From a virus: 25,950 nt of DNA. The notes under the pieces were generated by a model that saw only the letters and a program-made list of their open reading frames with translations, was not told the DNA's origin and did no database searches. This document shows, one piece after another, positions 1 to 20,752 of the stretch (the stretch's first letter is position 1; every line of letters starts with the position of its first letter). The position numbers and the translations under genes were made by a program. The stretch lies in the IMG/VR virus record IMGVR_UViG_3300013125_000045, positions 1 to 25,950 of that record; one strand, given 5' to 3'.

Positions 1-58
1 AACGACCAGTTACTTGGCAAGTCGTTTTGTAAATGTAATGGTGTTGTTTGCGTGGCAT
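1..58 (-). CDS. GIY-YIG homing endonuclease, N-terminal fragment (cut by window edge)
   Basis: Reading from an ATG at 58 toward the left edge gives MPRKQHHYIYKTTCQVTGR, still open at base 1. The HYIYKTT...TGR pattern is the usual first strand of a GIY-YIG nuclease domain in phage homing endonucleases. The catalytic YIG, Arg, Glu and Asn lie outside the window. The ATG sits at the end of the 3' arm of an 18-bp hairpin whose loop carries a late promoter (see 56-107). The gene follows directly after the last tRNA of the array. The family call rests on 19 residues plus the shared regulatory layout, so it is likely but not proven. Confidence 0.6.
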   Translation of the reverse strand, partial: MPRKQHHYIYKTTCQVTGR

Positions 59-107
59 TTTTGTACTGATGTCTTTTGATTATTTATACGACATCAGTAC
101 AAAAATG
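56..107 (-). promoter_or_regulatory. 18-bp hairpin with late promoter TATAAATA in its loop, hiding a start codon
   Basis: Bases 56-73 and 90-107 are a perfect 18-bp inverted repeat around a 16-base loop. The loop holds TATAAATA on the minus strand (88 to 81), the T4 late-promoter box. The ATG of the endonuclease at 58 ends the 3' arm. A long transcript running through the tRNA array would fold and hide the start. A transcript started at the late promoter would lack the 5' arm. It could also act as a terminator for the array. Confidence 0.75.
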
Positions 108-115
108 ACCAGATG

Positions 116-188
116 TAGCGGGAGAGGGATTCGAACCCTCGACCTCAAGATTATGAGTCTTGCGAGCTGGCCTCTGCTCTACCCCACA
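116..188 (-). tRNA. tRNA with CAT anticodon (Met or Ile2)
   Basis: Full cloverleaf: D stem GAGC/GCTC, anticodon loop CTCATAA on a CAAGA/TCTTG stem, T arm GAGGG-TTCGAAT-CCCTC. The first acceptor pair is T:T, the rest pair with G:T wobbles. The anticodon stem lacks the three G:C pairs of initiator tRNA, so elongator Met, or Ile after C34 modification, is more likely. CCA is not encoded. Confidence 0.88.
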
Positions 189-191
189 ATG

Positions 192-264
192 TGGAAACGG
201 ACGGAATCGAACCGCCGACGCCAAGCTCTTCAGGCTTGCGCTCTACCGACTGAGCTACGCTTCC
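192..264 (-). tRNA. tRNA-Phe (GAA)
   Basis: Seven acceptor pairs (GGAAGCG/CGTTTCC, one wobble), anticodon loop CTGAAGA, T arm GGCGG-TTCGATT-CCGTC. CCA is not encoded. Confidence 0.95.
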
Positions 265-270
265 AATTAT

Positions 271-348
271 TGGTGCTCTCTGTAAGATTCGAACTTACGA
301 CTTTCACTTTGTAAGAGTGACACTCTGAACCAACTGAGTTAAGAGAGC
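271..348 (-). tRNA. tRNA-Val (TAC), CCA encoded
   Basis: Acceptor GCTCTCT/AGAGAGC pairs fully, anticodon loop CTTACAA, T arm GTAAG-TTCGAAT-CTTAC, followed by ACCA. Confidence 0.95.
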
Positions 349-353
349 GTGTG

Positions 354-428
354 TGATCGTAGCTGGATTCGAACCTGCGACCCCTACCCTGTCAAGGTAA
401 TGCTCTAAACCAACTGAGCTATACGATC
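354..428 (-). tRNA. tRNA-Val (GAC)
   Basis: Acceptor GATCGTA/TACGATC pairs fully, D arm GCTC/GAGC, anticodon loop TTGACAG. The anticodon arm closely resembles the enterobacterial Val(GAC) arm. T arm GCAGG-TTCGAAT-CCAGC. Confidence 0.92.
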
Positions 429-436
429 AATCTTAG

Positions 437-510
437 TAGTCCCGACGGGGCTCGAACCCGCAACCTTTGCCTTGAAAGGGCAACGACTTAACCTGTTCGT
501 CTACAGGACC
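437..510 (-). tRNA. tRNA-Glu (TTC), copy 1
   Basis: Acceptor GGTCCTG/CGGGACT pairs with two wobbles, anticodon loop CTTTCAA on TTGCC/GGCAA, T arm GCGGG-TTCGAGC-CCCGT. A second Glu(TTC) with a different body follows at 526-600. Confidence 0.9.
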
Positions 511-525
511 ATGAACTTTCGTTAG

Positions 526-600
526 TCCTCCGTACGGGATTCGAACCCGTGATCTCCAGGATGAAAACCTGACGTCCTTGACCGACTAGACGAACGGAGA
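526..600 (-). tRNA. tRNA-Glu (TTC), copy 2
   Basis: Acceptor TCTCCGT/ACGGAGG, D arm of the classical Glu type (TTCGTCTAG...AGGAC), anticodon loop TTTTCAT on TCAGG/CCTGG, T arm ACGGG-TTCGAAT-CCCGT. Confidence 0.92.
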
Positions 601-610
601 ATAGCAGAAT

Positions 611-1447
611 CTAAAGGTTGCTTATTATTACTTCGCTAGTGAATTTGCTTGTTTTAGCGCTTGCTACGATTGCTGACCAAGCAAAGTACCTCATAGATAC
701 GTCAATTACTGAGTATTTTTTGGACCACTCGATCAATTCGGAGTTTGTTAAACCGCTGTGAACAAAAGTGTTAGAAAGAACAAATTTGTACCCTAGACTG
801 TCCAATCCGTCAATATGCTCTAGCAACTGTACCTCATTTTCTATGTTCCACCCACAGTAAGTGTATTTTGATGCTAAGTACGGTGGATCAAAGTAAATAA
901 CATCCTTTTCTTTATCAATTTGACCGAGATCCAAGCTTGAGTAATCTCCGACGAAAAAGGAAAATTCTTTATCCTCGGCTAGCTTAACGTGAGCTGCTAG
1001 TCTATTGAAATCTAATTTTTTATACCCAAACGGGGTGTTAAATCCGTTTGGCCCAAACCTTAGCAGCGAGTTAAAGCTTGATTGAACTAGAACGTGTAGC
1101 ATTGGCGCATTATCCTGAGTAGTTCCGGTCACCTTCCATGTGTTATTGAAGTCGGAACGTAATCTCATAAATCCATCCTTAGTAGTTTCGCCAGATGGGT
1201 AATAATCGTTTGCAACGCTAACGCAATTTACTACGAAGCTTGGATCAAATATGCACTTGTGCAATTCGATAACGTCGTTACTTGAATCTATTCCTATACC
1301 TCCTCTTGCAGAATTGTACAAGCAGACTCCTGAACCTAAAAACGGTTCGTGAATTCGTTCAAACGGCGCTAACAAAGTTTTTAAGTTAGAAGACCAAATT
1401 CTAAATTTGTTTCCAGTATAAGAGAAAAGACCTTTGCTTGATGTCAT
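611..1447 (-). CDS. D12-class (Dam-like) adenine-N6 DNA methyltransferase
   Basis: 278 residues, the usual length for the D12/Dam family, which transfers a methyl group from S-adenosylmethionine to N6 of adenine in a short DNA site. Motifs appear in family order: FSYTGNKF near residue 8 (AdoMet pocket), HEPFLGSGV near 33, an IGIDSSN acidic strand near 51, the NSLLRFGPNGFNTPFG block near 126-141 and the catalytic DPPY near 187. All key residues look intact. It lies alone between tRNA-Glu and tRNA-Ile(TAT) with no restriction partner in view, so protection of phage DNA from host restriction is the simplest role. Target sequence cannot be read from the protein. A GATAAATT box about 20 bases upstream of the ATG may be a weak late promoter. 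Confidence 0.93.
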   Translation of the reverse strand: MTSSKGLFSYTGNKFRIWSSNLKTLLAPFERIHEPFLGSGVCLYNSARGGIGIDSSNDVIELHKCIFDPSFVVNCVSVANDYYPSGETTKDGFMRLRSDFNNTWKVTGTTQDNAPMLHVLVQSSFNSLLRFGPNGFNTPFGYKKLDFNRLAAHVKLAEDKEFSFFVGDYSSLDLGQIDKEKDVIYFDPPYLASKYTYCGWNIENEVQLLEHIDGLDSLGYKFVLSNTFVHSGLTNSELIEWSKKYSVIDVSMRYFAWSAIVASAKTSKFTSEVIISNL

Positions 1448-1483
1448 ATACTTTTCTACTAATTTATCGCTATCGGTTTACAG

Positions 1484-1556
1484 TACTCCAGGATGGAATT
1501 GAACCACCGGCCTTGAAGGTATAAGCTTCCTGCTCTCACCCCTGAGCTACTGGAGC
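1484..1556 (-). tRNA. tRNA-Ile (TAT)
   Basis: Acceptor GCTCCAG/CTGGAGT, D arm GCTC-AGGGGTGA-GAGC, anticodon loop CTTATAC, T arm GGTGG-TTCAATT-CCATC. It would read the rare AUA codon. The outermost anticodon-stem pair is G:A. Confidence 0.88.
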
Positions 1557-1641
1557 AAATAAAAGAAGAGAATTTTAGTTAGGGTTTAGTGTACAAAATC
1601 CAAATTTGCGAAGTAACCCTGTACTTTACTACTTCTTATTG
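1557..1641 (-). other. Spacer with copy M1 of the shared GTTACTTCG motif
   Basis: Between Ile(TAT) and the Ala-like locus. Minus strand 1632-1609 reads GTAGTAAAGTACAG then GGTTACTTCG, matching the motif at 2010-2034, 4184-4209, 4894-4918 and 5053-5080. No tRNA half was recognised on its 3' side, so this copy may be a relic. Confidence 0.5.
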
Positions 1642-1712
1642 TTGACACATTGGGAATCGAACCCAGTCATCTTCATTGCAAGTGAAGCGCCCTGCCTTCG
1701 GGATCTGGCCCA
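1642..1712 (-). tRNA. Atypical tRNA-like locus, anticodon TGC (Ala), 5' acceptor strand missing
   Basis: The 3' half is good: anticodon arm CTTCA-CTTGCAA-TGAAG, variable loop, T arm around TTCGATT, then TGTGTCA as 3' acceptor strand. The expected partner TGACACA is not found upstream; the sequence there (TGGGCCA) pairs at only about five of seven positions, and the D arm is irregular. An intact Ala(TGC) lies at 1850-1923. This may be a decayed gene, or one whose 5' end is supplied in some other way. The structured RNA at 1723-1845 lies directly on its 5' side. Confidence 0.5.
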
Positions 1713-1722
1713 TTTCTTCTCG

Positions 1723-1845
1723 TTCAGAACGAGCGAGCGAGGTTACCTGATATTGCATCGGGATATTTTCTACCTCGGGTGGTCTGCGTTCGGTTTGGAC
1801 TCTAAACAGCCTCGCTCAGCCATCGTCCGTTGAGCTCGTTCTGAA
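1723..1845 (-). ncRNA. Structured RNA element A between two Ala-type tRNAs
   Basis: 1723-1734 pairs perfectly with 1834-1845 (12 bp), and the adjoining 1735-1742 pairs with 1810-1817 (8 bp). This makes a long stem broken only by a 16-base bulge on one side. The 67-base interior holds a GTTT/AAAC hairpin with a seven-base loop. The length of the pairing makes chance unlikely. No hammerhead core or group I P7 pair was found. Function unknown; a processing signal or a small intron-like RNA are possible. Confidence 0.5.
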
Positions 1846-1849
1846 TTTG

Positions 1850-1923
1850 TGGACCGTAAGGGATTCGAACCCTTGACCTCCTGCTTGCAAGGCAGGCGCT
1901 CTAGCCATCTGAGCTAACAGCCC
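1850..1923 (-). tRNA. tRNA-Ala (TGC)
   Basis: Acceptor GGGCTGT/ACGGTCC with wobbles, D arm GCTC-AGATGGCTA-GAGC, anticodon loop CTTGCAA on CCTGC/GCAGG, T arm AAGGG-TTCGAAT-CCCTT. Confidence 0.95.
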
Positions 1924-1946
1924 GTAAAAGTAGAGAAAGTCGGGAG

Positions 1947-2009
1947 AGTCAACAGGCGGATTTGAACCGCATCGATTGTTTAAGAGACAATTGCCTTACC
2001 GTTAGGCGA
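1947..2009 (-). tRNA. Atypical tRNA-Lys (CTT), 5' acceptor strand replaced by the shared motif
   Basis: D arm GCC-TAACGGTAA-GGC, anticodon arm ATTGT-CTCTTAA-ACAAT, T loop TTCAAAT and 3' acceptor strand TGTTGAC are present. The partner GTCAACA is absent. In its place, directly before the TCGCC of the D arm, stands the motif ...AGAGTTACTTCG (2010-2034). tRNA-Pro ends only seven bases beyond the motif, so no 5' exon fits nearby in cis. Confidence 0.55.
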
Positions 2010-2034
2010 CGAAGTAACTCTATCCATTACTACT
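2010..2034 (-). other. Copy M2 of the shared GTTACTTCG motif
   Basis: On the minus strand it reads GTAGTAATG, then GATAGAGTTACTTCG, and joins the D arm of the Lys(CTT)-like tRNA. It is nearly identical to the motif overlapping the 3' end of the HNH gene at 4184-4209. Confidence 0.55.
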
Positions 2035-2040
2035 ACTTAG

Positions 2041-2114
2041 TCGAGTAGAGAGGATTCGAACCTCCGACCCCTTGATCCCAAATCAAGAACGCTAGCCAGC
2101 TGCGCCACTACTCG
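2041..2114 (-). tRNA. tRNA-Pro (TGG)
   Basis: Perfect acceptor CGAGTAG/CTACTCG, anticodon loop TTTGGGA on CTTGA/TCAAG, T arm GGAGG-TTCGAAT-CCTCT. The acceptor and T stem match the neighbouring Pro(CGG), which suggests a tandem duplication. Confidence 0.95.
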
Positions 2115-2126
2115 TTAGTTTAATAT

Positions 2127-2202
2127 TGGTCGAGTAGAGAGGGTTCGAACCTCCGACCCCAACGTCCCGAACGTTGTACGCTACCAGCTGCGCTACTACT
2201 CG
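2127..2202 (-). tRNA. tRNA-Pro (CGG), CCA encoded
   Basis: Acceptor CGAGTAG/CTACTCG followed by ACCA, anticodon loop TTCGGGA on CAACG/CGTTG, T arm GGAGG-TTCGAAC-CCTCT. Probably a diverged duplicate of Pro(TGG). Confidence 0.95.
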
Positions 2203-2209
2203 AATTTAT

Positions 2210-2286
2210 TGGTGGGCAAAGTAGGAGTCGAACCTACGGCCTTCTGAATATCAGTCAGATGCTCTAACCAACTGAGCTATATGCCC
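2210..2286 (-). tRNA. tRNA-Ile (GAT), CCA encoded
   Basis: Acceptor GGGCATA/TTTGCCC then ACCA, D arm GCTC/GAGC, anticodon loop CTGATAT on TCTGA/TCAGA, T arm GTAGG-TTCGACT-CCTAC. Confidence 0.95.
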
Positions 2287-2301
2287 GTTATGCAACTTTG
2301 T

Positions 2302-2412
2302 TCGATGTCAGCGGGAGTTGCCAACCCGTCCGCCTTACGGTGCGGCTCGCCGTTTGATCTTACGATCAGGGAAAGCGAGGAACTACGATCCGGTGGCCTA
2401 CCGGCTCATCGA
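2302..2412 (-). ncRNA. GC-rich structured RNA element B with two GTAA tetraloop hairpins
   Basis: 2302-2307 pairs with 2407-2412, extended by 2310-2312 with 2404-2406. Inside are the hairpins 2390-2394/2400-2404, TGATC-GTAA-GATCA (2355-2368, minus strand) and a second GTAA-capped hairpin at 2330-2345, plus CGGG/CCCG at 2312-2328. GTAA is a GNRA tetraloop, common in folded catalytic or regulatory RNA. The element fills the whole gap between Ile(GAT) and the interrupted Leu-like tRNA. Family unknown. Confidence 0.5.
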
Positions 2413-2620
2413 CACCCCTAGAGGATTTGAACCTCTGACTTCTCGACTACACCTTATTAACGATAGCATCACGTACGCTCTGTTATCTTTTGGGGTTCGT
2501 CTACCTTGATTCTCCCGGCTACTTCATCGGTTACCTCTGCGCAAAAGTAAACGAGTACCTTACCGAAGTCCTCAAGTTCCGGCCCTCAACTGGACGCTCT
2601 AACCGCTGAGCTAAGAGGTG
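2412..2620 (-). tRNA. Interrupted tRNA, Leu-like (GAG), with a 141-base insert before the T arm
   Basis: The 5' half (CACCTCT, D arm GCTC-AGCGGTTA-GAGC, anticodon arm TCCAG-TTGAGGG-CCGGA with one A:C mismatch) and the 3' half (AGAGG-TTCAAAT-CCTCT then AGGGGTG) pair at all seven acceptor positions with one wobble. Between them lie 141 bases (2437-2577). The insert folds locally: CTTGA 2576-2572 with TCAAG 2509-2505, ACTTC 2569-2565 with GAAGT 2525-2521, and GGT 2564-2562 with ACC 2531-2529. The D arm is of the short-variable type, odd for Leu. Intron in the variable loop is the likely reading; group I cores were not recognised. Confidence 0.55.
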
Positions 2621-2626
2621 ATTTTG

Positions 2627-2702
2627 TGGAGCCTTTGGAGGGATTCAAACCCCCGACCTTCTGAGTACAAATCAGTGGCTCTATCAGCTGAGCTACAAAG
2701 GC
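2627..2702 (-). tRNA. tRNA-Thr (TGT), CCA encoded
   Basis: Perfect acceptor GCCTTTG/CAAAGGC then TCCA, D arm GCTC-AGCTGATA-GAGC, anticodon loop TTTGTAC, T arm GGGGG-TTTGAAT-CCCTC. The T loop begins TTTG rather than TTCG. Confidence 0.94.
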
Positions 2703-2708
2703 ATTGAG

Positions 2709-2781
2709 AGCCTCATGCCGGAATCGAACCGACGACCTACTGAGTACGAAACAGTCGCTCTACCGTCTGAGCTAAAGAGGC
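2709..2781 (-). tRNA. tRNA-Thr (CGT)
   Basis: Acceptor GCCTCTT/ATGAGGC, D arm GCTC-AGACGGTA-GAGC, anticodon loop TTCGTAC on ACTGT/TCAGT, T arm GTCGG-TTCGATT-CCGGC. CCA is not encoded. Confidence 0.93.
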
Positions 2782-2784
2782 GTT

Positions 2785-2860
2785 TGGCACCAGTGGAAGG
2801 ACTCGAACCCTCAACCTTCGGTTTTGGAGACCGCTGCTCTACCAATTGAGCTACACTGAT
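2785..2860 (-). tRNA. tRNA-Trp (CCA), 3' CCA encoded
   Basis: Acceptor ATCAGTG/CACTGGT with G73 and encoded CCA, anticodon loop CTCCAAA on GCGGT/ACCGA, T arm GAGGG-TTCGAGT-CCTTC. Confidence 0.94.
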
Positions 2861-2905
2861 ATTTTTGATTTGAGAACAACGAAAAGAGCGACTTGATACT
2901 AAGCA

Positions 2906-3598
2906 TTATGGAAGCTTGGTACGGGATTCGAACCCGTGATAACCAACGATGAAACTCTGTTTCTCACTACAAATCAATAAGTTAATGGTGCGGGCGCCAC
3001 GGGGGTCGAACCCGCAATCCTCGAAGTGACAGTCCGATATGTTACCTACAACACTTCGCGCCCATTTTTTTTTATCAAGAATTTCTTTTGTCCAAACAGC
3101 TAATGTTCCGATTTTTCGTAATGCTTCCCATTTAAGTAGATCAGTAATAGTTGTTCTACCTTTAACTTCAACATACGTTATTGTATCGTCTAAGTTAGTT
3201 ACCGTGAAATCGATGATGTATGTATGCTTTTTAGAGTCTGACCCAATATATTGAATTCGGTTTTTTGCGTATTCCCAATTTTTAATCATACCCGACAACT
3301 TAGCTTCATCTAGTATTCGGCAGGCTTTAGCTTCGTACGAACCTTGAACCTTTAACGTTCTATCTGAGCATGCTACAACTATCCATTTAGTAGTTCCGCC
3401 TGCGACAAAATTCTTACCAGTTTGATAAGAACGTTTGTTAACTTCAGACCAATTTACTTTACTGTGATTAGTCCATCCTCCTCTATAAGAAGTTGCACAA
3501 CTTCGTGAACAACAAGTTTGGCGACGTTTATTCCAGTTGACAATAAATTCTGTTTGACAATTTTGGCAGATCAATTTTACTTTGTCGTGTCCGGTCAT
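2906..3598 (-). CDS. PD-(D/E)XK-type homing endonuclease with zinc-binding N-terminus
   Basis: 230 residues. The N-terminus has a CQNC...CCSRSC zinc-ribbon pattern (about residues 11-34). A nuclease-like core follows: SYEAKACRIL near 88, IIDF near 128 and YVEVKG near 141, matching the E...xD...ExK spacing of PD-(D/E)XK nucleases. It resembles the second endonuclease at 5128-5697 in layout (zinc site, then core ending in YVEIKG). The recognisable protein ends near DKKKW (about base 3063). After that the frame runs through tRNA-Asp (2991-3063) and the orphan tRNA half to a stop at 2906, so the last 50 or so residues are tRNA sequence read as protein. A late promoter and start-codon hairpin lie at 3594-3619. 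DNA target unknown. Confidence 0.75.
   Translation of the reverse strand: MTGHDKVKLICQNCQTEFIVNWNKRRQTCCSRSCATSYRGGWTNHSKVNWSEVNKRSYQTGKNFVAGGTTKWIVVACSDRTLKVQGSYEAKACRILDEAKLSGMIKNWEYAKNRIQYIGSDSKKHTYIIDFTVTNLDDTITYVEVKGRTTITDLLKWEALRKIGTLAVWTKEILDKKKWARSVVGNISDCHFEDCGFDPRGARTINLLICSEKQSFIVGYHGFESRTKLP
2913..2965 (-). tRNA. Orphan tRNA 3' half (Glu-like TTC loop)
   Basis: T arm ACGGG-TTCGAAT-CCCGT and 3' acceptor strand ACCAAGC are clear, and a TTTCAT loop resembling that of the Glu tRNA at 526-600 lies before them. No upstream 5' half with GCTTGGT exists before the next tRNA. Downstream, GCTTAGT (2904-2898) could pair with ACCAAGC at six of seven positions around a nine-base loop, similar to the permuted Ser locus, but no D arm follows. 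It overlaps the 3' end of the endonuclease ORF 2906-3598. Confidence 0.4.
2991..3063 (-). tRNA. tRNA-Asp (GTC), copy inside the endonuclease ORF
   Basis: Acceptor GGGCGCG/GGCGCCC pairs at six of seven positions (G:G at the base). D arm GTGT/ACAT, anticodon arm TCGGA-CTGTCAC-TTCGA, T arm GCGGG-TTCGACC-CCCGT, G73. Its 5' end follows a run of A in the endonuclease frame, as if the endonuclease inserted directly beside it. Confidence 0.85.
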
Positions 3599-3619
3599 GT
3601 TTTATTTTATTTATATGAC
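3594..3619 (-). promoter_or_regulatory. Late promoter inside a start-codon hairpin (endonuclease 2906-3598)
   Basis: TATAAATA occupies 3615-3608 on the minus strand. GTCAT (3619-3615) pairs with ATGAC (3598-3594), which contains the ATG start. The stem is 5 bp with a 16-base AT-rich loop. Same layout as at 56-107, 4655-4686 and 17802-17834. Confidence 0.65.
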
Positions 3620-3644
3620 TTTCAGCGTGAACTAAAATGGTCGA

Positions 3645-3720
3645 TGGCGGTCCCAACGAGAGTTGAACTCGCTCCGTACTGCGTGACAGGCAGACATCTT
3701 AACCGTTTGACCTTGAGACC
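3645..3720 (-). tRNA. tRNA-Asp (GTC), CCA encoded
   Basis: Acceptor GGTCTCA/TGGGACC with G73 and CCA, D arm GTC-AAACGGTTAA-GAT, anticodon arm TCTGC-CTGTCAC-GCAGT, T arm GCGAG-TTCAACT-CTCGT. Confidence 0.94.
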
Positions 3721-3727
3721 ATTACTG

Positions 3728-3813
3728 TGACCCCGGTTGGATTCGAACCAACGACTTTCCGCTTAAAAGGCGGAAGCTCTAAGCTTGCGCAAACCGGACT
3801 GAGCTACGAGGCC
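3728..3813 (-). tRNA. tRNA-Lys (TTT) with an enlarged D loop
   Basis: Acceptor GGCCTCG/CGGGGTC, anticodon arm TCCGC-CTTTTAA-GCGGA, T arm GTTGG-TTCGAAT-CCAAC. The D stem GCTC/GAGC encloses a 21-base loop instead of 8-10 bases. The extra part contains the self-complementary TTGCGCAA. All other parts are normal, so the tRNA may still work. Confidence 0.88.
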
Positions 3814-3830
3814 AGCTAATAAATATCGCT

Positions 3831-4028
3831 ATGAACTTGTATCACTGCGATCATTGCGACTCAATAACTGACGAGGCAGGAAATTTCGTCAGATTAGATA
3901 CCAGGCCGTTGGCGTTCAACGACCTCCCACTCCGTTGTTGTAAGTCTTGCCGCGATTACGAAATGTGGGAATACGAAGAGTATTTTTCTGGAAATCCGAG
4001 GACCGAGAGGGATTCGAACCCTCAATAA
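3831..4028 (+). CDS. Small cysteine-rich protein, possible zinc ribbon, antisense to the tRNA array
   Basis: 65 residues on the opposite strand to the array. CDHC at residues 6-9 and CCKSC at 36-40 form a plausible zinc site, and the middle (FVRLDTRPLAFNDLPLR) reads like real protein. AATAAATA at 3818-3825, a late-promoter-like box, ends only five bases before the ATG. The last 10 or so residues are antisense to the Gly-like tRNA at 3999-4068 and look accidental. The cysteine pattern argues for a real gene; short length and position argue against. Function unknown. Confidence 0.45.
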   Translation: MNLYHCDHCDSITDEAGNFVRLDTRPLAFNDLPLRCCKSCRDYEMWEYEEYFSGNPRTERDSNPQ

Positions 4029-4068
4029 CCAGTGGGACGGGGCGCGCACCAACCGTCGCATTCGGCCC
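3999..4068 (-). tRNA. tRNA-like gene, possibly Gly (CCC), with a poor anticodon arm
   Basis: Acceptor GGGCCGA/TCGGTCC pairs at all seven positions (one wobble) and the T arm GAGGG-TTCGAAT-CCCTC is perfect. D stem GCG/CGC is possible. The anticodon arm is weak: a loop GTCCCAC would give CCC, but the flanking stem pairs at only two or three positions. Possibly a decaying gene. Confidence 0.55.
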
Positions 4069-4107
4069 ATAATTACAAACAAGAACATTGGATAGAGGTA
4101 TTTGTTT

Positions 4108-4184
4108 GATGTCAAATTTCAAGTTTGATGACTTAACCACTTGTCTACACGGATTGCTCCATGATGGGATTCGAACCCACGATC
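4108..4184 (-). tRNA. Apparent circularly permuted tRNA-Ser (TGA)
   Basis: Read along the minus strand, the 3' half comes first: variable-arm GATC (4184-4181), T arm GTGGG-TTCGAAT-CCCAT (4180-4164), acceptor strand CATGGA (4163-4158). After the tetraloop GCAA the 5' half follows: TCCGTG (4153-4148, pairing six of six), TA, D arm GAC-AAGTGGTTAA-GTC of Ser type, anticodon arm TCAAA-CTTGAAA-TTTGA, then ATC pairing with the opening GAT. All cloverleaf parts are present once, with the gene ends in the variable arm. Ordinary reading fails: no fitting 3' half lies downstream. CCA is not encoded. Whether it is processed into a tRNA is unknown. Confidence 0.6.
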
Positions 4185-4209
4185 GAAGTAACTCTATGAC
4201 CTTACTATG
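4184..4209 (-). other. Copy M3 of the shared GTTACTTCG motif, overlapping the HNH gene end
   Basis: The minus strand reads CATAGTAAGG, then TCATAGAGTTACTTCG. The first part codes for the last residues and the stop of the HNH protein; the second runs straight into the permuted Ser tRNA. This ties the motif family to a mobile endonuclease gene. Confidence 0.6.
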
Positions 4210-4661
4210 CTTGATTTCTTATTGACAATGTTTTTTGCTCCGAACGTATGCGTTTGAGAATGACAGTTTGGACACAAAAGTCTCAGATTTCTAAGTCTGT
4301 GATTTCTGTTATTTCCGTCAATGTGATCGACTTGTAAAGATAAAGGTCGACCATTCCATTCTGCTGGAGTTCCGCATTCTTCGCAACGATCCTCTTTGTA
4401 ACCTTCCGCAATCAAACGTCTTTTTAGTTTAGACGTAGGATATTCTGGATGCTTTCCTTCGAGAATGTCAAGCAATTTGAATGCTACTCCGCCGGTTCTT
4501 TTCATTTTGCGTAACTTGACTTCAATTTGAATTCCTAACAGATTGCAATATTTAGTTAGAGTCACTCTACTGATTCCAGTTACTTCTGAAAGTTCCAAAA
4601 CAGAATTAACGTTCTTGGCATTTTCATTGATTTTGTCTACGATTTCTTGGTTTAGCCGCAT
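4194..4661 (-). CDS. HNH homing endonuclease
   Basis: 155 residues from the ATG at 4661. An earlier TTG start at 4697 is rejected because the late promoter lies between the two. The N-terminal half carries a helix-turn-helix-like stretch (VLELSEVTGISRVTLTKYCNLLGI, about residues 21-44). The C-terminal half is a classic HNH nuclease with two zinc-binding CxxC pairs (CEECG and CPNCH) around LQVDHIDGNNRNHRLRNLRLL. The catalytic DH, N and final H are present. It lies between tRNA-Tyr and the permuted Ser tRNA. Its stop overlaps the repeated motif that marks the other interrupted tRNAs, so it may be the mobile partner of that family. Confidence 0.9.
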   Translation of the reverse strand: MRLNQEIVDKINENAKNVNSVLELSEVTGISRVTLTKYCNLLGIQIEVKLRKMKRTGGVAFKLLDILEGKHPEYPTSKLKRRLIAEGYKEDRCEECGTPAEWNGRPLSLQVDHIDGNNRNHRLRNLRLLCPNCHSQTHTFGAKNIVNKKSSIVRS

Positions 4662-4686
4662 TGCTTTATTTTTATTTATATGCGGC
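4655..4686 (-). promoter_or_regulatory. Late promoter inside a start-codon hairpin (HNH gene)
   Basis: TATAAATA occupies 4680-4673 (minus). GCCGCAT (4686-4680) pairs perfectly with ATGCGGC (4661-4655), whose first three bases are the start codon. The loop is 18 bases. Read-through RNA would hide the ATG; RNA begun at the late promoter would not contain the 5' arm. Confidence 0.75.
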
Positions 4687-4714
4687 CTGTTTACCAAAAC
4701 TTCTGTAAACTACG

Positions 4715-4796
4715 TAGGATGTGATGGAGTCGAACCACCCGAGCTTTCACAACAGATTTACAGTCTGCCCCGCTACCATCTACGGAATAACATCCC
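4715..4796 (-). tRNA. tRNA-Tyr (GTA)
   Basis: Acceptor GGGATGT/ACATCCT, anticodon arm GCAGA-CTGTAAA-TCTGT as in typical bacterial Tyr, a longer variable region, T arm GGTGG-TTCGACT-CCATC. Confidence 0.92.
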
Positions 4797-4840
4797 ATTT
4801 CCCTCTATTTTTGATTTCCTGGAGGGTGCGGAATCATTCG

Positions 4841-4962
4841 TGGGGAAGGCTGGATTTGAACCAACAAGATCAACTTATGAGATTGATTGTTTCCGAAGTA
4901 ACACTTATCATTGCTATCATCGCTGAAGAAAACCGACAGTGCGCATTTTTGTTTTCTTCCCC
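4841..4962 (-). tRNA. Interrupted tRNA with CAT anticodon (Met/Ile2-like), insert between acceptor and anticodon arm
   Basis: Acceptor GGGGAAG/CTTCCCC is perfect. Anticodon arm TCAAT-CTCATAA-GTTGA and T arm GTTGG-TTCAAAT-CCAGC are good. About 75 bases stand where the D arm should be. They hold a 9-bp hairpin (4959-4951 with 4933-4925) that uses part of the 5' acceptor strand. Its loop CTGTC (4939-4935) can pair with GATAG (4918-4914), making an H-type pseudoknot, and the shared motif (4914-4894) follows. TGTT-ACTTCGGA-AACA at the end could be the D arm, placing the insert after base 7. Confidence 0.6.
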
Positions 4963-4998
4963 ATAGGTACCTGTTTTTACTGTACAGGAAAACAGTTT

Positions 4999-5119
4999 TG
5001 GCGGGGAAGGCTGGATTCGAACCAACATTACCAATTTTCAAGTTTGCTTTTTACCGAAGTAACTCTTATCTTTGCTATCGTTTCCGAAGAAATTCGACAG
5101 AGTATTGAATTTCTTCCCC
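4999..5119 (-). tRNA. Interrupted tRNA with TGA anticodon (Ser-like), CCA encoded
   Basis: Sister of 4841-4962. Acceptor GGGGAAG/CTTCCCC is perfect and followed by GCCA; G73 fits Ser. The T arm GTTGG-TTCGAAT-CCAGC is good; the CTTGAAA loop has a weak stem. The D region holds a perfect 10-bp hairpin (5116-5107 with 5095-5086). Its loop CTGTCG (5100-5095) can pair with CGATAG (5080-5075), followed by the motif ending GTTACTTCG (5053). Hairpin arms differ in sequence between the two copies yet stay paired. Confidence 0.6.
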
Positions 5120-5127
5120 ATGTTTCT

Positions 5128-5697
5128 TTATGAATTCCAAGATTTTCCTCTGTACTCTCGATTTACTTTACGATAATCAGAAATGAGTCCTAACGAGAAA
5201 AGATCCTGGCCGTTCAATATCTTCAATGAAAGTGGAAATTCATTCCACTTTGCAAAATCCTTTTCGGTAGGGTACCCCTTTATTTCAACGTATTGATTGT
5301 CATCAACGAGATAGAAATCTGGAGTGTAATATCGAGTTTTTGAATCGAATTCGTATCTGAACTTTTCAGTTGGTCGTCTCCACCGAATTCCTTGTGAATC
5401 TAACCATTTGGCGTATTCAACTTCCCATGTTCCGTGAAATCGTTGACCACCGTATTCGATTGTTCGTTTTTTCGAAAAAGATAGGTGCCAGTTATCAGTC
5501 CTGACGTTTTCCTTTACTGTATCGGAAATCTTCCGTCTGACTTCAGATCGACTTGCTGGATTTTTTTGACCCATCATTCGATTCTGACTCTTCTGTCTGG
5601 AAGTTTCAACGTTTGGATTATTTTTACACCAAACGATGTGACCTCCTAACTTCAAACCATTATCAAATGCTTTTCCGCAATATTTACATTCATGCAT
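5128..5697 (-). CDS. PD-(D/E)XK-type homing endonuclease with zinc finger
   Basis: 189 residues. The N-terminus has a C2HC-like zinc finger, CKYCGKAF...LKLGGHIVWC (residues 4-24). A basic linker follows (QNRMMGQKNPASRSEVRRKISDTV), like DNA-binding modules of mobile nucleases. The core reads HGTWEVEYAKWLDS, YYTPDFYLVDD, YVEIKGYPTEKD, which gives the glutamate, the PD and the ExK of the PD-(D/E)XK fold. It resembles the endonuclease at 2906-3598 and is not obviously truncated. It sits between tRNA-Asn and the interrupted tRNA at 4999-5119. A late promoter lies just upstream. Confidence 0.8.
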   Translation of the reverse strand: MHECKYCGKAFDNGLKLGGHIVWCKNNPNVETSRQKSQNRMMGQKNPASRSEVRRKISDTVKENVRTDNWHLSFSKKRTIEYGGQRFHGTWEVEYAKWLDSQGIRWRRPTEKFRYEFDSKTRYYTPDFYLVDDNQYVEIKGYPTEKDFAKWNEFPLSLKILNGQDLFSLGLISDYRKVNREYRGKSWNS

Positions 5698-5704
5698 GAG
5701 CGCT

Positions 5705-5730
5705 TGTCCTTTATTTTATTTATACAGACA
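5705..5730 (-). promoter_or_regulatory. Late promoter upstream of endonuclease 5128-5697, weak hairpin over AAAGGA
   Basis: TATAAATA lies at 5724-5717 (minus). TGTC (5730-5727) can pair with GACA (5708-5705), partly covering the AAAGGA ribosome site. The stem is only 4 bp, so the hairpin is less certain than in the other endonuclease genes. Confidence 0.5.
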
Positions 5731-5744
5731 CCTGCTCGTTTCTG

Positions 5745-5817
5745 CGGGAGTAGAGGGATTCGAACCCACAACCTCAAAGTTAACAGCTTTTCGCTCTACC
5801 GTTGGAGCTATACTCCC
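5745..5817 (-). tRNA. tRNA-Asn (GTT)
   Basis: Acceptor GGGAGTA/TACTCCC with G73, D arm GCTC-CAACGGTA-GAGC, anticodon arm AAAAG-CTGTTAA-CTTTG, T arm GTGGG-TTCGAAT-CCCTC with one mismatch. Confidence 0.92.
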
Positions 5818-5822
5818 AAAAT

Positions 5823-5879
5823 ATGAATCATCATCCATCATCCCAACGTCCTGCTGAGGTGAAGATAGAAATGATTCAT
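5823..5879. repeat. 9-bp inverted repeat between tRNA-Asn and tRNA-Gly
   Basis: ATGAATCAT at 5823-5831 and ATGATTCAT at 5871-5879 are exact reverse complements 39 bases apart. It may be a processing structure in the tRNA precursor; no gene was seen here. Confidence 0.45.
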
Positions 5880-5882
5880 GTG

Positions 5883-5955
5883 AGCGGAAAACGGGGCTTG
5901 AACCCGCAACCCTTAGCTTGGAAGGCTAATGCTCTACCAGTTGAGCTATTTCCGC
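5883..5955 (-). tRNA. tRNA-Gly (TCC)
   Basis: Perfect acceptor GCGGAAA/TTTCCGC, D arm GCTC-AACTGGTA-GAGC, anticodon arm TTAGC-CTTCCAA-GCTAA, T arm GCGGG-TTCAAGC-CCCGT. Confidence 0.95.
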
Positions 5956-5959
5956 GTTT

Positions 5960-6015
5960 GCACGGGTCACCATCACGGCCCCGTGCTTGTGCTAGGCGGG
6001 CGGTAGACCGCCTAG
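5960..6015 (-). ncRNA. Tandem GC-rich hairpins (element D) between two tRNAs
   Basis: GCACGGG/CCCGTGC (5960-5966 with 5980-5986) is followed at once by CTAGGCGG/CCGCCTAG (5992-5999 with 6008-6015). Both stems are perfect, and the stretch is far richer in GC than its surroundings, as in element B. No T run follows, so terminators are unlikely. Function unknown. Confidence 0.45.
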
Positions 6016-6057
6016 CTTTGTGCCAATATTTTCCAAGATGTCAAAGAACCTTTACTG

Positions 6058-6173
6058 TGCGCTCGGAAGGATTCGAACCTCCGTAGATTCCAGCTTAATT
6101 TCTGAACGTTAAGGTTGTAAGCCCGTTCAGTGTACCAATTTCGGCTGGTGCTTATCCGCTCAGTCACGAGCGC
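6058..6173 (-). tRNA. Atypical long tRNA, Ser-type D arm, with an extra internal stem
   Basis: Perfect acceptor GCGCTCG/CGAGCGC, Ser-like D arm TGACTGAGCGGATAAGC, T arm GGAGG-TTCGAAT-CCTTC. The middle is too long and folds two ways. ACCAG/TTGGT can enclose CCGAAA, a six-base version of a Ser(CGA) loop, leaving a long variable region with the 7-bp stem CTGAACG/CGTTCAG. Alternatively CCAGC/GCTGG forms an anticodon stem holding that hairpin as an insert. First gene of the array in the transcribed direction. Confidence 0.55.
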
Positions 6174-6197
6174 GTTTATGTTAAAGAACTGTTAAAA

Positions 6198-6236
6198 CAA
6201 AAAACCCGAGCTTTCTTTTTGAAGGCCCGGGTTTTC
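6198..6236 (-). terminator. Strong rho-independent-type terminator upstream of the tRNA array
   Basis: A hairpin pairs 6201-6215 with 6221-6235 (core AACCCG.GC...GC.CGGGTT), with a run of T on its 3' side on the minus strand. It separates the tRNA array from the genes on its right. Confidence 0.8.
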
Positions 6237-6259
6237 CAAGTTTCTTGTGATAATTACCT

Positions 6260-6388
6260 TCACTTCAACCTATGCAAACCTGAGCCCATTCTTACGTCAT
6301 CGCATGATGGATTCCATGTTCCAATAAAGCCCTCGAGGGATATTGGTTGGGAACTGCGATACGCCTTATGTAACTGTAGGGTTTTCAT
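6260..6388 (-). CDS. Possible small protein of 42 residues
   Basis: ATG at 6388 opens MKTLQLHKAYRSSQPISLEG..., ending in GSGLHRLK and a stop at 6260. GATAAATA at 6422-6415 lies 27 bases before the ATG, and the terminator at 6198-6236 lies just after the stop, so promoter, ORF and terminator form a plausible unit. No family recognised. It could instead be a short untranslated RNA. Confidence 0.4.
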   Translation of the reverse strand: MKTLQLHKAYRSSQPISLEGFIGTWNPSCDDVRMGSGLHRLK

Positions 6389-6414
6389 TTGTTGTTTGTG
6401 TTAGTGTTCGGTTT

Positions 6415-6422
6415 TATTTATC
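6415..6422 (-). promoter_or_regulatory. Late-promoter-like box GATAAATA
   Basis: Minus-strand GATAAATA followed by AAAC, differing from the T4 late box only in the first base. It faces the 42-residue ORF at 6260-6388. Confidence 0.5.
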
Positions 6423-6595
6423 ACGACCTTCTTAAAAGTTTTCGTCGATGTGAAACTATTCTACAACTTTTTCCAACGTTTGGCCAATTTTTTTGGAACT
6501 TTTTTACAAACTTTTTTCCAAGTGATTGATTCTCATTGAAATAATTGGTGAAGCTAAATTACAACTTTTTCCCGAAAGGAAAAAATCCAGCCAAA
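6423..6595. other. AT-rich spacer with short repeats
   Basis: No convincing gene. Several near-repeats of GGAAAAAAGTT on the minus strand lie at about 6465-6525. A TTTTTCC-CGAAA-GGAAAAA hairpin at 6566-6586 may be a second terminator. Confidence 0.35.
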
Positions 6596-9352: not shown

Positions 9353-9970
9353 ATGAAACAACCAATAGTCAAATCATTCTTACAGTTCATCAACGAGAAT
9401 GTAGAGCAACCTCAACTCGACAGTAGTCAATTTTTAATAGAATTAGCAGATAGGATTCAAAAAACTGAAAAATTCGGAATCGTATCTGTCGAGGGTACTT
9501 ACCTTCAAATTAGCAAAAGTGATAATATTCACGATTGGGCGGACATTAGGGACGCAGCAAATGATGTGATTCGAGTGTACGCAGACTATGAAGCTAAGGT
9601 GATGCCGTTATTCAAGGATCAATCAGAAACGAATTACGAAGAAATCAATGTTCTGGCTCAACACGGAATATTAGAACTGTCCACTTTTTTGAAAGGCTTT
9701 GCAATATCCAGTTCGCTGAACTGCTGGTCAAAAGATCTCGACGGTTGGTCGATGGACGATGGTAGCGATGAAATGGAAGAATATCCGCTTGACGAGTTTA
9801 ACTTGAAAGAAGGAGATCCTATTGAAACTATAGCAAGAGAACTGAGTGAATACATTGATGATGGATTCAATCAGTTCTATACTGCAGAGGATGTTATTCA
9901 GGATTCAGTAAACGATTATTGCAATCAATATTCTGATGATGAAGAAGAAGACGAATCAGATGATGATTAA
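9353..9970 (+). CDS. Acidic protein with a capsid-targeting-like N-terminus
   Basis: 205 residues, very acidic, ending in EEEDESDDD. The N-terminus MKQPIVKSFLQFINENVEQ resembles the T4 capsid-targeting sequence, whose type is MKTYQEFIAEA: a short amphipathic helix with a conserved F and E that directs internal proteins into the prohead and is then cleaved by the prohead protease. The rest (ELADRIQKTEKFGIVSVEGTYLQISKS...) matches nothing I recognise. It is one of few plus-strand genes here and stands alone behind a late-type box, as expected for a virion-related protein. No cysteine-based or catalytic motif is apparent. Confidence 0.65.
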   Translation: MKQPIVKSFLQFINENVEQPQLDSSQFLIELADRIQKTEKFGIVSVEGTYLQISKSDNIHDWADIRDAANDVIRVYADYEAKVMPLFKDQSETNYEEINVLAQHGILELSTFLKGFAISSSLNCWSKDLDGWSMDDGSDEMEEYPLDEFNLKEGDPIETIARELSEYIDDGFNQFYTAEDVIQDSVNDYCNQYSDDEEEDESDDD

Positions 9971-17026: not shown

Positions 17027-17056
17027 ATTATACGCAGAAAAGCATTCTGGTTTCAA
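17027..17056 (-). promoter_or_regulatory. sigma70-like promoter for the lipoprotein gene
   Basis: TTGAAA (17056-17051) and TATAAT (17032-17027) on the minus strand, 18 bases apart, 21 bases before the ATG at 17005. The -35 box overlaps the stop codon of the GIY-YIG gene. It suggests early or continuous expression by host polymerase. Confidence 0.65.
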
Positions 17057-17802
17057 AATTTATTGATTTTGATCATATAACCCGAGTAAGGATAGATTCT
17101 TTTTTGTGAATTTTCAATGATTACTTGATTCGTTTTTCGTAAGGTTATTCTAGTTTTATGAGAAACTGGATATTCTGCGAATAGGCGTTTTAGGCAATCA
17201 AATTTTTTTACCAATTGTAAATTTTCATCATACAACTCGGCATAACCCAGCCATTGTGAATTATTCGAACCTCTTGAATTTAGACTTCGTTTTAATCGAT
17301 TTTCGGGAATAGAGCAAACCTCCTTCATTCTCCTAGAAAATTTTTTCTTATAGTCTACGGTATTTTCAACTTCTTTTTTTCTAGAAAGAACTCTTTGCCT
17401 AAAATCTTGATCTTTCCATAAATTCGTAGTATTGATTCGATGTTTTTCTCTAGTTTTTTCAGACAACTGAGAACTTTTATTCTGTAACTTTTTTCTCGTA
17501 ATATTTTGAGAATCGACTGATCTCATTGAAAAAGTATCTCCGCCGTCTCCGCCGGTTAACAAATTGTAACCTATTTTACGAAAGGTTGACTTTAATTCTT
17601 TTATCCAATACTGTTCAAGAGCATTCAAATCAGAAATAGTATCACACTCAGCTAATATTTCTTTTTGAAAATTTTCTATCCCATATTTCTTAATTGCTTC
17701 TTTTATCAATGAACCTGACCCAAAATATTTTGGGTCATTGTTTTTACTTTTGCCAACATAAATTTTGCCGTTTATCAAATTCGTAACTCTATAAACAAAC
17801 AT
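17053..17802 (-). CDS. GIY-YIG homing endonuclease
   Basis: 249 residues from the ATG at 17802. Upstream extension into the reductase gene is rejected because of the promoter-hairpin at the ATG. The nuclease domain is MFVYRVTNLINGKIYVGKSKNNDPKYFGSG (Y3, YVG at 15-17), then EAIKKYGIENFQKEIL, the catalytic Glu in LNALEQYWI (about 67) and GYNLLTGGDGG. The central part (about 95-200) is a basic string with NUMOD-like repeats (TREKHRINTTNLWKDQDFRQRVLSRKK; MKEVCSIPENRLKRSLNSRGSNN) that would bind DNA. A C-terminal segment completes it. It is free-standing next to the ribonucleotide reductase gene, a common site for phage homing genes. Confidence 0.92.
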   Translation of the reverse strand: MFVYRVTNLINGKIYVGKSKNNDPKYFGSGSLIKEAIKKYGIENFQKEILAECDTISDLNALEQYWIKELKSTFRKIGYNLLTGGDGGDTFSMRSVDSQNITRKKLQNKSSQLSEKTREKHRINTTNLWKDQDFRQRVLSRKKEVENTVDYKKKFSRRMKEVCSIPENRLKRSLNSRGSNNSQWLGYAELYDENLQLVKKFDCLKRLFAEYPVSHKTRITLRKTNQVIIENSQKRIYPYSGYMIKINKF

Positions 17803-17834
17803 TGCCGTGAGTTTATTGTTATTTATCACGGCAA
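17802..17834 (-). promoter_or_regulatory. Late promoter inside a start-codon hairpin (GIY-YIG gene)
   Basis: GATAAATA lies at 17827-17820 (minus). A perfect 9-bp stem pairs 17826-17834 with 17802-17810 around a 15-base loop. The promoter box spans the 5' arm and loop, and the first base of the start codon ends the 3' arm. The ribosome landing zone is fully paired in read-through RNA. Confidence 0.75.
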
Positions 17835-17858
17835 CGCTTGCGAAAATAAGTAAACTTT

Positions 17859-19787
17859 TTATACGACAGTGCATGAGTTTCCAACACATGCGAGTTCGCC
17901 TTTGAGGTCAGTTAGGTCTTCCATTTCTACCACTTTGGTGAGGTCAACCTTGGACAAGTGGTCCATCATTTCATGGTACTTTTCCTCAGTGCAATCCTCA
18001 AACGGCGGCTGAACGTAGGTCCCTCCATCGTAAGGCAGGACTGCTATTCCGTTGTAAAATTTGCGGTTTTCCCACATCCAATTTCCAACTGCTTGCCACT
18101 CGTCCACTCCGTTTGGATCGTCCGTTAGTTCGAGCTTGTGTTTCCACTTGTAAACGTAACGACGGTTCTTGTCTATCGACACCGTTGCAGATATGTTGTG
18201 AGTGTTCTGCCCAGACCTGTGCCCAGGTTTTATCCAATCGCTGTAGAACCGCTTGATCCTTTCCAGCAACTCTATAGCTGTTTCAGTTCTAAAGACCGAA
18301 CCTTCTGGCGCTTTTTGCGGAACGGATATGATAGCTGTATCGTGAGGCCTAAAGAAATCATCTTCAAGGAGTTCTGGGTGATAGATTGACAGGTGAGTGT
18401 AGATTGATTCATTCTTGCCAACTCTTATCCTGCGAATGTAGAATGGATTGTGCCAAGCGTGTATGCCAGAAGAGGTTCCGAGAACTAGACTTGACGTGCC
18501 GCTTGGTTTTATCGTCGTGCATCGTGCGGCAGAATTTATGCCGATGATCTTGGCTACTCTGTCATTTTCAACCTTTACTTCGTTAGCCGCTTCAGCTAAG
18601 TCAAACCGCTGAGCAGCGCCGGATCCGATGCCGGTCATTCCAACGCCAATGAGTGCTTCCTTCTCAGTAGTTCTCTGCCAGTTGGTTCTCAGGTAATGAA
18701 ATTCCGTGTACCCAGCCTGAAGAGTTCCGATGAATGCTGCAGCTTTTACTCGAGCGTTCAGGTCTTCCTGCGATTCAACGTCCGATGCATTCACTTCGCA
18801 CAGGTTGCAGAATTGAAAAGGCCTAAGCGAGATCTCGCAGCACGGGTTGGTTCCCCAATCTTTATCGTTACTCAGGTAAATACCTGGTTCTCCTGAACCC
18901 GACGCTTCTATCTTTGCCCACATGTCCATGAAAAATTCTCTGGTTATTATGTTGCGAAGAAGAACCGCAGAATTGTTAGCTCTACCTCTCTGCGGATTAA
19001 GTTCCCACCACGAGCCGGTTTTGGCTGAAATCATCTCGTCGTCGTCCGCACTGAACAAACTGATCAGGGCAGCTCTGCGAATTCCACCGGCTAGAACAGC
19101 GTCAGCTATGTAGCAGACCAAATCGTGAACTTCAATAGGTTTGAGCTTGTCGCCATTCTCTTTCTGAGACAGCAAGCCTTCTATCTTTACTAGACACTCT
19201 TTTAACGGTTGCGGTCCTGGCGCTTTTCCGCCTGATGTCACTAGCCTAGCTCCCTTTGGTCGAATGTCCCTGAAATCAAAATCGATAGCTGACCCGCCGA
19301 AGAAGTAAGATTTCATCAGAACTTTTATGGAATCTGCCCAACCCTCAATGCTATCACCTATCAGAAACCTTCTACTGCGGTTGTGATTAGGCTTTGTGAT
19401 TTCTGGTAAATTTTCAACGTGGTGTTTCTGAACGCTGAAACCTACTCCAGTTCCTCCTAACAGAAGAAACATGATCTCGCTGAAAGCTCTCCAGTCGTCT
19501 ATCGGAAGGTACGCGCAGTTGTAAATTCTGTTTGGAGATATTTCTATCGGTTTTCCACCGAACTGCAATGACCTCATCGAAGGGAGAACCTTTCGATCGT
19601 ACACAAACTTGTAATTTTTTCGAATTTCTTCTTCCAGGTCCGGGTACTTCCGTATGTGCATTTCCATGTTTCTGGTTACGAGTTCTTCCCAAGTTTCTCT
19701 CCTCTTGTGCTCGTTAGAATACCTGGCGTACTTCATGTATACTGTGATGTCGCTGAGTATCTGGTTTGACAATTCCATATTTTGCAT
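17859..19787 (-). CDS. nrdJ: Class II (B12-dependent) ribonucleotide reductase
   Basis: 642 residues from ATG 19787. It turns ribonucleotides into deoxyribonucleotides using adenosylcobalamin to form a thiyl radical. Signs of class II: VLPSMRSLQFGGKPIEISPNRIYNCAYLP (first redox Cys, near 90), LLLGGTGVGFSVQKHHVENLP, ARLVTSGGKAPGP, NPCCEISLRPFQFCNLCEVN (active-site Cys region, near 315), GMTGIGSGAAQR, IKPSGTSSLVLGTSSGIHAWHNPFYIRRIRV, and the tail CVGNSC, the re-reducing cysteine pair. Closest to monomeric RTPR of the Lactobacillus type; no small subunit gene is needed. The N-terminus lacks a long allosteric cone. Makes dNTPs during phage replication. Confidence 0.93.
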   Translation of the reverse strand: MQNMELSNQILSDITVYMKYARYSNEHKRRETWEELVTRNMEMHIRKYPDLEEEIRKNYKFVYDRKVLPSMRSLQFGGKPIEISPNRIYNCAYLPIDDWRAFSEIMFLLLGGTGVGFSVQKHHVENLPEITKPNHNRSRRFLIGDSIEGWADSIKVLMKSYFFGGSAIDFDFRDIRPKGARLVTSGGKAPGPQPLKECLVKIEGLLSQKENGDKLKPIEVHDLVCYIADAVLAGGIRRAALISLFSADDDEMISAKTGSWWELNPQRGRANNSAVLLRNIITREFFMDMWAKIEASGSGEPGIYLSNDKDWGTNPCCEISLRPFQFCNLCEVNASDVESQEDLNARVKAAAFIGTLQAGYTEFHYLRTNWQRTTEKEALIGVGMTGIGSGAAQRFDLAEAANEVKVENDRVAKIIGINSAARCTTIKPSGTSSLVLGTSSGIHAWHNPFYIRRIRVGKNESIYTHLSIYHPELLEDDFFRPHDTAIISVPQKAPEGSVFRTETAIELLERIKRFYSDWIKPGHRSGQNTHNISATVSIDKNRRYVYKWKHKLELTDDPNGVDEWQAVGNWMWENRKFYNGIAVLPYDGGTYVQPPFEDCTEEKYHEMMDHLSKVDLTKVVEMEDLTDLKGELACVGNSCTVV

Positions 19788-19906
19788 TATTTTTTTAAGT
19801 ATCAATCAGTTTCGAAATCCGTCTCAGTTTAGATGGCTGTGGCTCTCAGCTAAGTGTTTGACCGTGTTTCAGAGGTGAATTTTGAATTGGTCTCTCGCTT
19901 TCTGAA

Positions 19907-20086: not shown

Positions 20087-20752
20087 ATGAAACCAATCAC
20101 GCAATACCCGTTTCCCGACAACCAGTACATTAAGGAGGAAACGACCAAGACTCAGCTGTACCTTCACCACACGGCAGGAAACCCAAACCCGTTCGCGACG
20201 TTTGAGTGGTGGGCAAGCACGCCGGAAAGAATAGCGACTTGCATAGCTATCGGCGGAAAACCAGGAAGCACAGGAAACTGGAAGGACGGCGAGATCGTTC
20301 AGGGTTTCTCTTCAAAGTACTGGGCTTACCATTTGGGACTTAAGGAAGCAACCTTTGATTTTTACGGGTTGCCGTATAAATCTCTCGACAAAAACAGCAT
20401 AGCTGTCGAAATTTGTAACTGGGGTCAACTTACTAAGGGCGCAGACGGGAAGTTCAGAAACTACGTCAACCGAGTTGTTCCTTTCGACGAAGTCTGCGAG
20501 CTTGACGTTCCTTACCGTGGTTACAAGTACTACCACGCATACACTGACGCTCAGATAGAAAGTCTGTACGAACTCATGAAATTCTGGGAACAGAGATACG
20601 GCCGGGATTACAAGTACTATGACGACATTTGGGACGTTAACGTAAGGGCTCTCAGAGGAGAACCTGGATTTTACGCTCACACGTCCGTTCGCAAGGACAA
20701 GAACGATTTATCGCCTCAGCCAAAAATGATCGCGATGCTAAAGGCGGTCTAA
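20087..20752 (+). CDS. N-acetylmuramoyl-L-alanine amidase (endolysin-type)
   Basis: 221 residues. It cuts the amide bond between muramic acid and L-alanine in peptidoglycan. Amidase_2 features: LYLHHTAGNPNPFATFEWW (zinc His at 27-28), IATCIAIGGKPGSTGNWKDGEIVQGFSSKYWAYHLG (second region, His near 84), DKNSIAVEICNWGQL (core strand with Glu) and AHTSVRKDKNDLSPQPKM, the late zinc-binding H...D end. No signal peptide or membrane helix is evident, so export through a holin, or a role on the virion, would be needed. It runs opposite to the reductase and overlaps the prs gene end to end by 15 bases. Confidence 0.92.
   Translation: MKPITQYPFPDNQYIKEETTKTQLYLHHTAGNPNPFATFEWWASTPERIATCIAIGGKPGSTGNWKDGEIVQGFSSKYWAYHLGLKEATFDFYGLPYKSLDKNSIAVEICNWGQLTKGADGKFRNYVNRVVPFDEVCELDVPYRGYKYYHAYTDAQIESLYELMKFWEQRYGRDYKYYDDIWDVNVRALRGEPGFYAHTSVRKDKNDLSPQPKMIAMLKAV

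Follow-up and report, generated by a model that had tools for sequence, protein, structure and literature searches.

What does a perfect hairpin that ends in a start codon do for the gene behind it? The window, by which we mean the whole stretch of DNA analysed here (record G000, a virus contig, 25,950 bp), raises this question at its left edge, where a gene on the minus strand (1–58) is cut by the contig end after 19 codons. Two further contigs, G002 and G001, supply the full 211-amino-acid protein. The protein matches phrog_314 'homing endonuclease' (E 2e-34) and, weakly, the Pfam families GIY-YIG and NUMOD3, and by these matches the gene encodes a homing endonuclease (HEG). G002 and the window have the same sequence across 8,777 bp, and G004 overlaps the right end of the window at 99.98%; because of these overlaps we treat the window, G002 and G004 as a single genome (X); G001 and G003, which share an overlap of 833 identical bases, are likewise taken as a second genome (Y). 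Genomes X and Y form group A, so that two genomes stand behind every group A statistic.

The hairpin occupies positions 56–107 on the minus strand, with a 5′ arm at 107–90, a 16-nt loop at 89–74 and a 3′ arm at 73–56 whose final three bases are the AUG (58–56). The two 18-nt arms are 100% complementary, and no other perfect inverted repeat with a short loop in the window is as long. When the window was shuffled 20 times with dinucleotides preserved, not one perfect repeat reached 12 bp with a loop of 3–30 nt, which places the edge hairpin far above chance expectation. A T4-late-type promoter element, TATAAATA (81–88, minus strand), lies entirely within the loop. The coordinates thus bear out what the preliminary description had reported: a perfect 18-bp stem, the motif in its loop and the ATG at its end. 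They also place the gene right behind a tRNA array, as had been stated, with 56 nt between the AUG and tRNA-Met (CAU; 188–115, minus strand), the last of about 21 tRNA genes in the upstream array. An Rfam search over positions 1–6500 returned tRNAs and nothing else. An exact search of viral contigs with the arm sequences found the cassette's own contigs (the window's genome and genome Y); its only further hits, in L001, L002 and L006, fell in coding sequence that is unrelated.

In the window, TATAAATA occurs five times against 0.71 expected, a count that no shuffle reaches, and four of the five copies sit 17–30 nt ahead of an endonuclease AUG. By the T4 rule, which places the start six nucleotides past the motif, late transcription would begin at position 75 (minus strand). 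The predicted RNA would lack the 5′ arm and have a 17-nt leader containing the 3′ arm alone, a length that agrees with other genes of the lineage. A search of 13 related contigs, most of them fragmentary, turned up neither the T4-type late sigma factor gp55 (phrog_234; positive in the T4 control) nor gp33 (phrog_254), and a search of 10 related contigs turned up no phrog_12791; because of this, we infer the role of TATAAATA as a late promoter from motif, position and gene context.

Predicted masking of the start codon and its release

We computed the cost of opening the start region (−12 to +3) in the competing RNAs. In RNA that reads through from the array or has been processed at the tRNA, opening costs 20.9–23.8 kcal/mol, whereas in RNA starting at position 75, or within 3 nt of it, the cost is 1.0–2.6 kcal/mol; the AUG bases have an unpaired probability of at most 0.003 in read-through RNA or RNA cut at the tRNA 3′ end. 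By this computation, the earlier claim that the hairpin hides the ribosome site holds for the start itself. It fails for a Shine–Dalgarno (SD) sequence: none precedes the edge gene, and the phage and its nearest relatives are almost free of them. The share of genes preceded by an SD-like 4-mer is 0–15% in genomes X and Y, group B and group C, against 56% in T4 and 42–54% in group D. What the edge hairpin is predicted to mask is the AUG itself together with an A-rich leader. SD sequences are usually absent in Bacteroidetes (PMC9723584), and because they are nearly absent here as well, a Bacteroidota-type host is likely, if unproven.

The hairpin probably acts as a time switch of the T4 I-TevI/SegB type on a free-standing GIY-YIG HEG. 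RNA entering from the tRNA array, presumably present early in infection, would carry both arms whether or not it is cut at the tRNA 3′ end, and the 18-bp stem would bury the AUG and the A-rich leader and so block ribosomes. Late in infection, a phage-directed RNA polymerase would initiate in the loop at TATAAATA, at about position 75, yielding RNA that carries the 3′ arm alone and leaves the AUG open. If translation tracks the accessibility of the start site, the endonuclease would be produced only late, when many genome copies are at hand for homing. Sequence and computation support this reading in five respects: the anatomy, the gap in opening energy, similar hairpins at other HEGs, the covariation of the arms and the joint spread of gene and hairpin in one cassette.

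For a positive control we computed a switch score, the difference in opening cost between read-through RNA and RNA that begins in the loop, for the NATAAATA motifs that precede T4 genes. The top scorers were e, I-TevI, I-TevII, gene 26, segB and 49, and most structural genes (18, 20, 22, 34 and 36) scored near zero, at the bottom. Most of these top-scoring T4 genes, along with mobE of Aeromonas phage Aeh1, are published hairpin-controlled cases (PMC2988022, PMC3014915). The edge gene reaches 20.2 kcal/mol, compared with 13.5 for I-TevI, 12.7 for I-TevII and 10.0 for segB. Thermodynamics and the T4 control, together with the comparative evidence below, thus favour the I-TevI-type control first proposed for this gene.

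Recurrence at other endonuclease genes

The edge gene also has the top switch score in the window, in line with its earlier ranking as the strongest case. Strong scores in genome X are completed by a GIY-YIG gene at 17802–17053 (15.7 kcal/mol) and the 10309 gene of G002 (8.2). The hairpin of the former (17796–17840, minus strand; arms 17840–17826 and 17810–17796) includes the AUG in its 3′ arm and has GATAAATA (17827–17820) at and in its loop. Homologues of the 17802 gene are mostly without a comparable hairpin, L419 excepted. There (540–612), a 43% identical homologue has TATTTATA flanked by complementary arms, with a possible GTG start downstream. The 17802 gene lies directly past ribonucleotide reductase (the two together at 17053–19805, minus strand), a location that recalls that of mobE beside the nrd genes in T4 and Aeh1.

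Two further minus-strand genes scored modestly. The endonuclease gene at 5697–5128 (phrog_15137), which begins 46 nt past tRNA-Asn and for which we found no further relative, has TATAAATA at 5724–5717 in an imperfect hairpin (5698–5737; 5.4 kcal/mol) that 13% of shuffles equal in strength. The HNH gene at 4661–4194, 52 nt past tRNA-Tyr, has TATAAATA at 4680–4673 between the arms GCCGCAT and ATGCGGC (4655–4686; 4.9 kcal/mol), with the AUG in the 3′ arm. A significant hairpin was absent in three of the eight genome X HEGs (12939, 3598 and 14178); one of these, an endonuclease-like minus-strand gene (3598–2906) after a tRNA at 3720–3648, has TATAAATA at 3615–3608 (start region 3594–3619; 2.0 kcal/mol). 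Elsewhere in the array, past tRNA-Ile, lies a gene for a D12-class adenine methyltransferase (611–1447, minus strand) without a clear late motif. Plus-strand genes at 9353–9970 and 20087–20752, one of them amidase-like, have AATAAATA promoters and no hairpin, as expected for genes opposite the tRNA and ribonucleotide reductase strand if the hairpin serves solely against read-through.

Across group A, HEGs had a median switch score of 8.2 kcal/mol versus 3.1 in other motif-bearing genes (p=0.003, or p=0.0012 once two HEGs missed by the labelling are added). In the window's lineage, start hairpins are thus a feature of HEGs that most other genes bearing this motif lack (p about 0.001–0.003). Group B, the TATTTATA lineages, gave 7.4 versus 2.6 (p=8e-4); correcting the labels lowers this to p=4e-7, a biased value, as the re-examination was confined to top scorers. 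HEGs also differed from other genes in group D (p=0.003). Ten unlabelled genes with high scores in groups A and B were compared with PHROGs. HEG, HNH or endonuclease VII families were matched by six (among them G003|19, with a weak homing-endonuclease profile match); one (G024|41) matched chiefly an unannotated family and looks nuclease-like on inspection, and another resembles an endolysin gene. The same hairpin layout, with high switch scores, was seen at an endolysin-like gene in G004 (L101; promoter at 12270), compare T4 e, and at an endonuclease VII-like gene in G005 (MNKKCTKCKQ...), compare T4 49. Searches of viral contigs for GTGACTATTTTGTAC and GGTCATTTTTGTAC added several new members to the family, although most of the hits were chance matches.

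The hairpin loops of the HEGs carry the promoter motif of their own lineage. The upstream 7-mers most enriched in G001 are TAAATAA and ATAAATA, the latter being also the most enriched in T4, G022 and G028; most group B contigs favour TATTTAT, ATATTTA and similar 7-mers, and ATATATA, TATATAA and ATATAAA are among the top 7-mers of group C (G025, G017 and G018). In group B and C contigs (L178–L247), the candidate late-promoter motifs TATTTATA and ATATATAAAA replace TATAAATA. In G001, a AATAAATA promoter at 11185 heads a same-strand gene series that ends in a baseplate-hub match.

Arm pairing, the conserved octamer and cassette mobility

To follow the arms across the family, we compared the pairing of each member's own 5′ and 3′ arms with pairing to the arms of other members. 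Because gaps broke the register when all family hairpins were aligned with MAFFT, we did not count pairs on that alignment; we relied on this arm-swap test and limited pair counting to four gapless paralogues. Over 24 family members, own-arm pairing reached −8.65 versus −4.54 after swapping (p<5e-5). The effect was strong in group A HEGs (−15.7 versus −7.9, z −7.1) and group C (z −6.4) and marginal for the HEGs of groups B and D (p about 0.047); non-HEG genes also showed an own-arm excess, a smaller one (−5.96 versus −5.00). In the four paralogues two stem pairs vary and each is compensated, one of them through a UA>UG>CG series, and all remaining changes fall in the loop; the shuffle control for this set was not significant (65 of 500), there being too few sequences. 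By the arm measure, family members L111, L127, L222, L405 and L414 have a weak hairpin or no clear one, and in some such members the arm may extend into the coding sequence, past the tested stretch.

These data bear on the possibility that the repeat serves as an operator in the DNA, at which the endonuclease binds over the promoter and represses its own gene, the hairpin being incidental. I-TevI does autorepress at a site overlapping its own late promoter (PMC2988022), and an octamer next to the promoter, TTTTGTAC, is conserved across lineages. An operator predicts sequence conservation, however, and this is true of the octamer alone; the arm sequences of the paralogues diverge while their complementarity persists, and one paralogue retains a G–U pair, which is possible in RNA but not in DNA. 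We therefore regard an operator in place of the RNA switch as unlikely, and the two layers could coexist.

In the edge hairpin the octamer lies in the 5′ arm (97–104, minus strand), and several lineages keep it ahead of the genes of this HEG family. It occurs 29–49 nt ahead of the HEG AUG in G001, G003, G017, G018, G019, G020, G021, G024 and G030, lineages whose promoters differ. A role as part of the arm pairing was considered and dropped, since the octamer belongs to the stem in group A but falls beyond it in some other lineages. From its placement, TTTTGTAC is probably an element separate from the stem, possibly an operator or a homing half-site. Its presence past tRNA genes without an adjacent HEG (tRNA-Ser and tRNA-Glu in G017, tRNA-His in G001) would suit a repeat that is partly a homing target retained from the insertion site, with its symmetry stemming from nuclease recognition. 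We consider this highly improbable: the octamer alone is conserved, the other arm positions vary with pairing kept, and at least one HEG-free site, at tRNA-Asp in G019, resembles the remnant of a lost HEG. Equally improbable is a transcription terminator, or a processing or stability structure for the tRNA array: the hairpin does adjoin the last tRNA, but an intrinsic terminator is rejected by the lack of a T run past the stem on either strand, the same layout recurs without a tRNA between the ribonucleotide reductase gene and the downstream GIY-YIG gene, and the AUG lies in or at an arm in the strong cases.

The proposed time switch on the edge gene appears to have travelled with it. Genomes X and Y share 97.9% identity across the 954-bp cassette, which runs from the tRNA-Met interior to include the HEG, whereas their other aligned genes are 72–80% identical, which indicates that gene and switch moved together. 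In the window, identity to genome Y (97.8%) spans positions 1–138, so that the shared block stops within the tRNA-Met gene. A scan of contigs that included T4, and that counted genome X records even where they overlap, gave 42 labelled HEGs whose start lies within 110 nt of the 3′ end of a tRNA; most of them begin at 33–66 nt, and many tRNA types precede them.

Comparison with known systems

Timing control of this kind is known from T4: for I-TevI, the td intron endonuclease, and for I-TevII, the ribosome site is concealed in early RNA and becomes free when transcription starts from a late promoter lying inside the structure (PMC2988022). Both are GIY-YIG HEGs like the edge gene, but they are intron-borne. 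Protection of splicing is the proposed reason for timing control in intron-borne HEGs (PMC2988022), a rationale that is inapplicable to the edge gene, which has no intron. Aeh1 mobE is a free-standing HEG that has a late promoter and an RNA hairpin masking its ribosome site (PMC2988022, PMC3014915); it is of the HNH type and lies in a ribonucleotide reductase locus, which makes the window's 17802 GIY-YIG gene the nearer positional parallel. T4 e (lysozyme) and 49 (endonuclease VII) share the hairpin and late-promoter layout but are not HEGs.

The closest T4 parallel is segB rather than the intron-borne I-TevI. Like the edge gene, segB is a free-standing GIY-YIG HEG past a tRNA gene (41 nt, against 56 nt here), with an upstream late-type motif and a hairpin over its start. 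It differs in having a Shine–Dalgarno sequence, and the stem of the edge gene is longer and perfect, with the promoter wholly in the loop (20.2 versus 10.0 kcal/mol).

A broader reading, which we hold to be about evenly balanced between right and wrong, is that in SD-less phages, probably of Bacteroidota, a hairpin around the local late promoter is a recurrent start-codon-masking cassette of free-standing HEGs from several nuclease families, rebuilt in each lineage around its own motif and spread with the gene. The match between loop motif and lineage offers a way to use endonuclease genes for reading late promoters in uncultured phages. Our results suggest that timing control is perhaps a common need of free-standing HEGs, beyond intron-borne ones. 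A regulatory trick known from a handful of T4-type genes would extend to uncultured phages that seemingly initiate translation without Shine–Dalgarno pairing: the principle is known from T4, and what is new is its SD-less, lineage-adapted form in the tRNA arrays of these phages.
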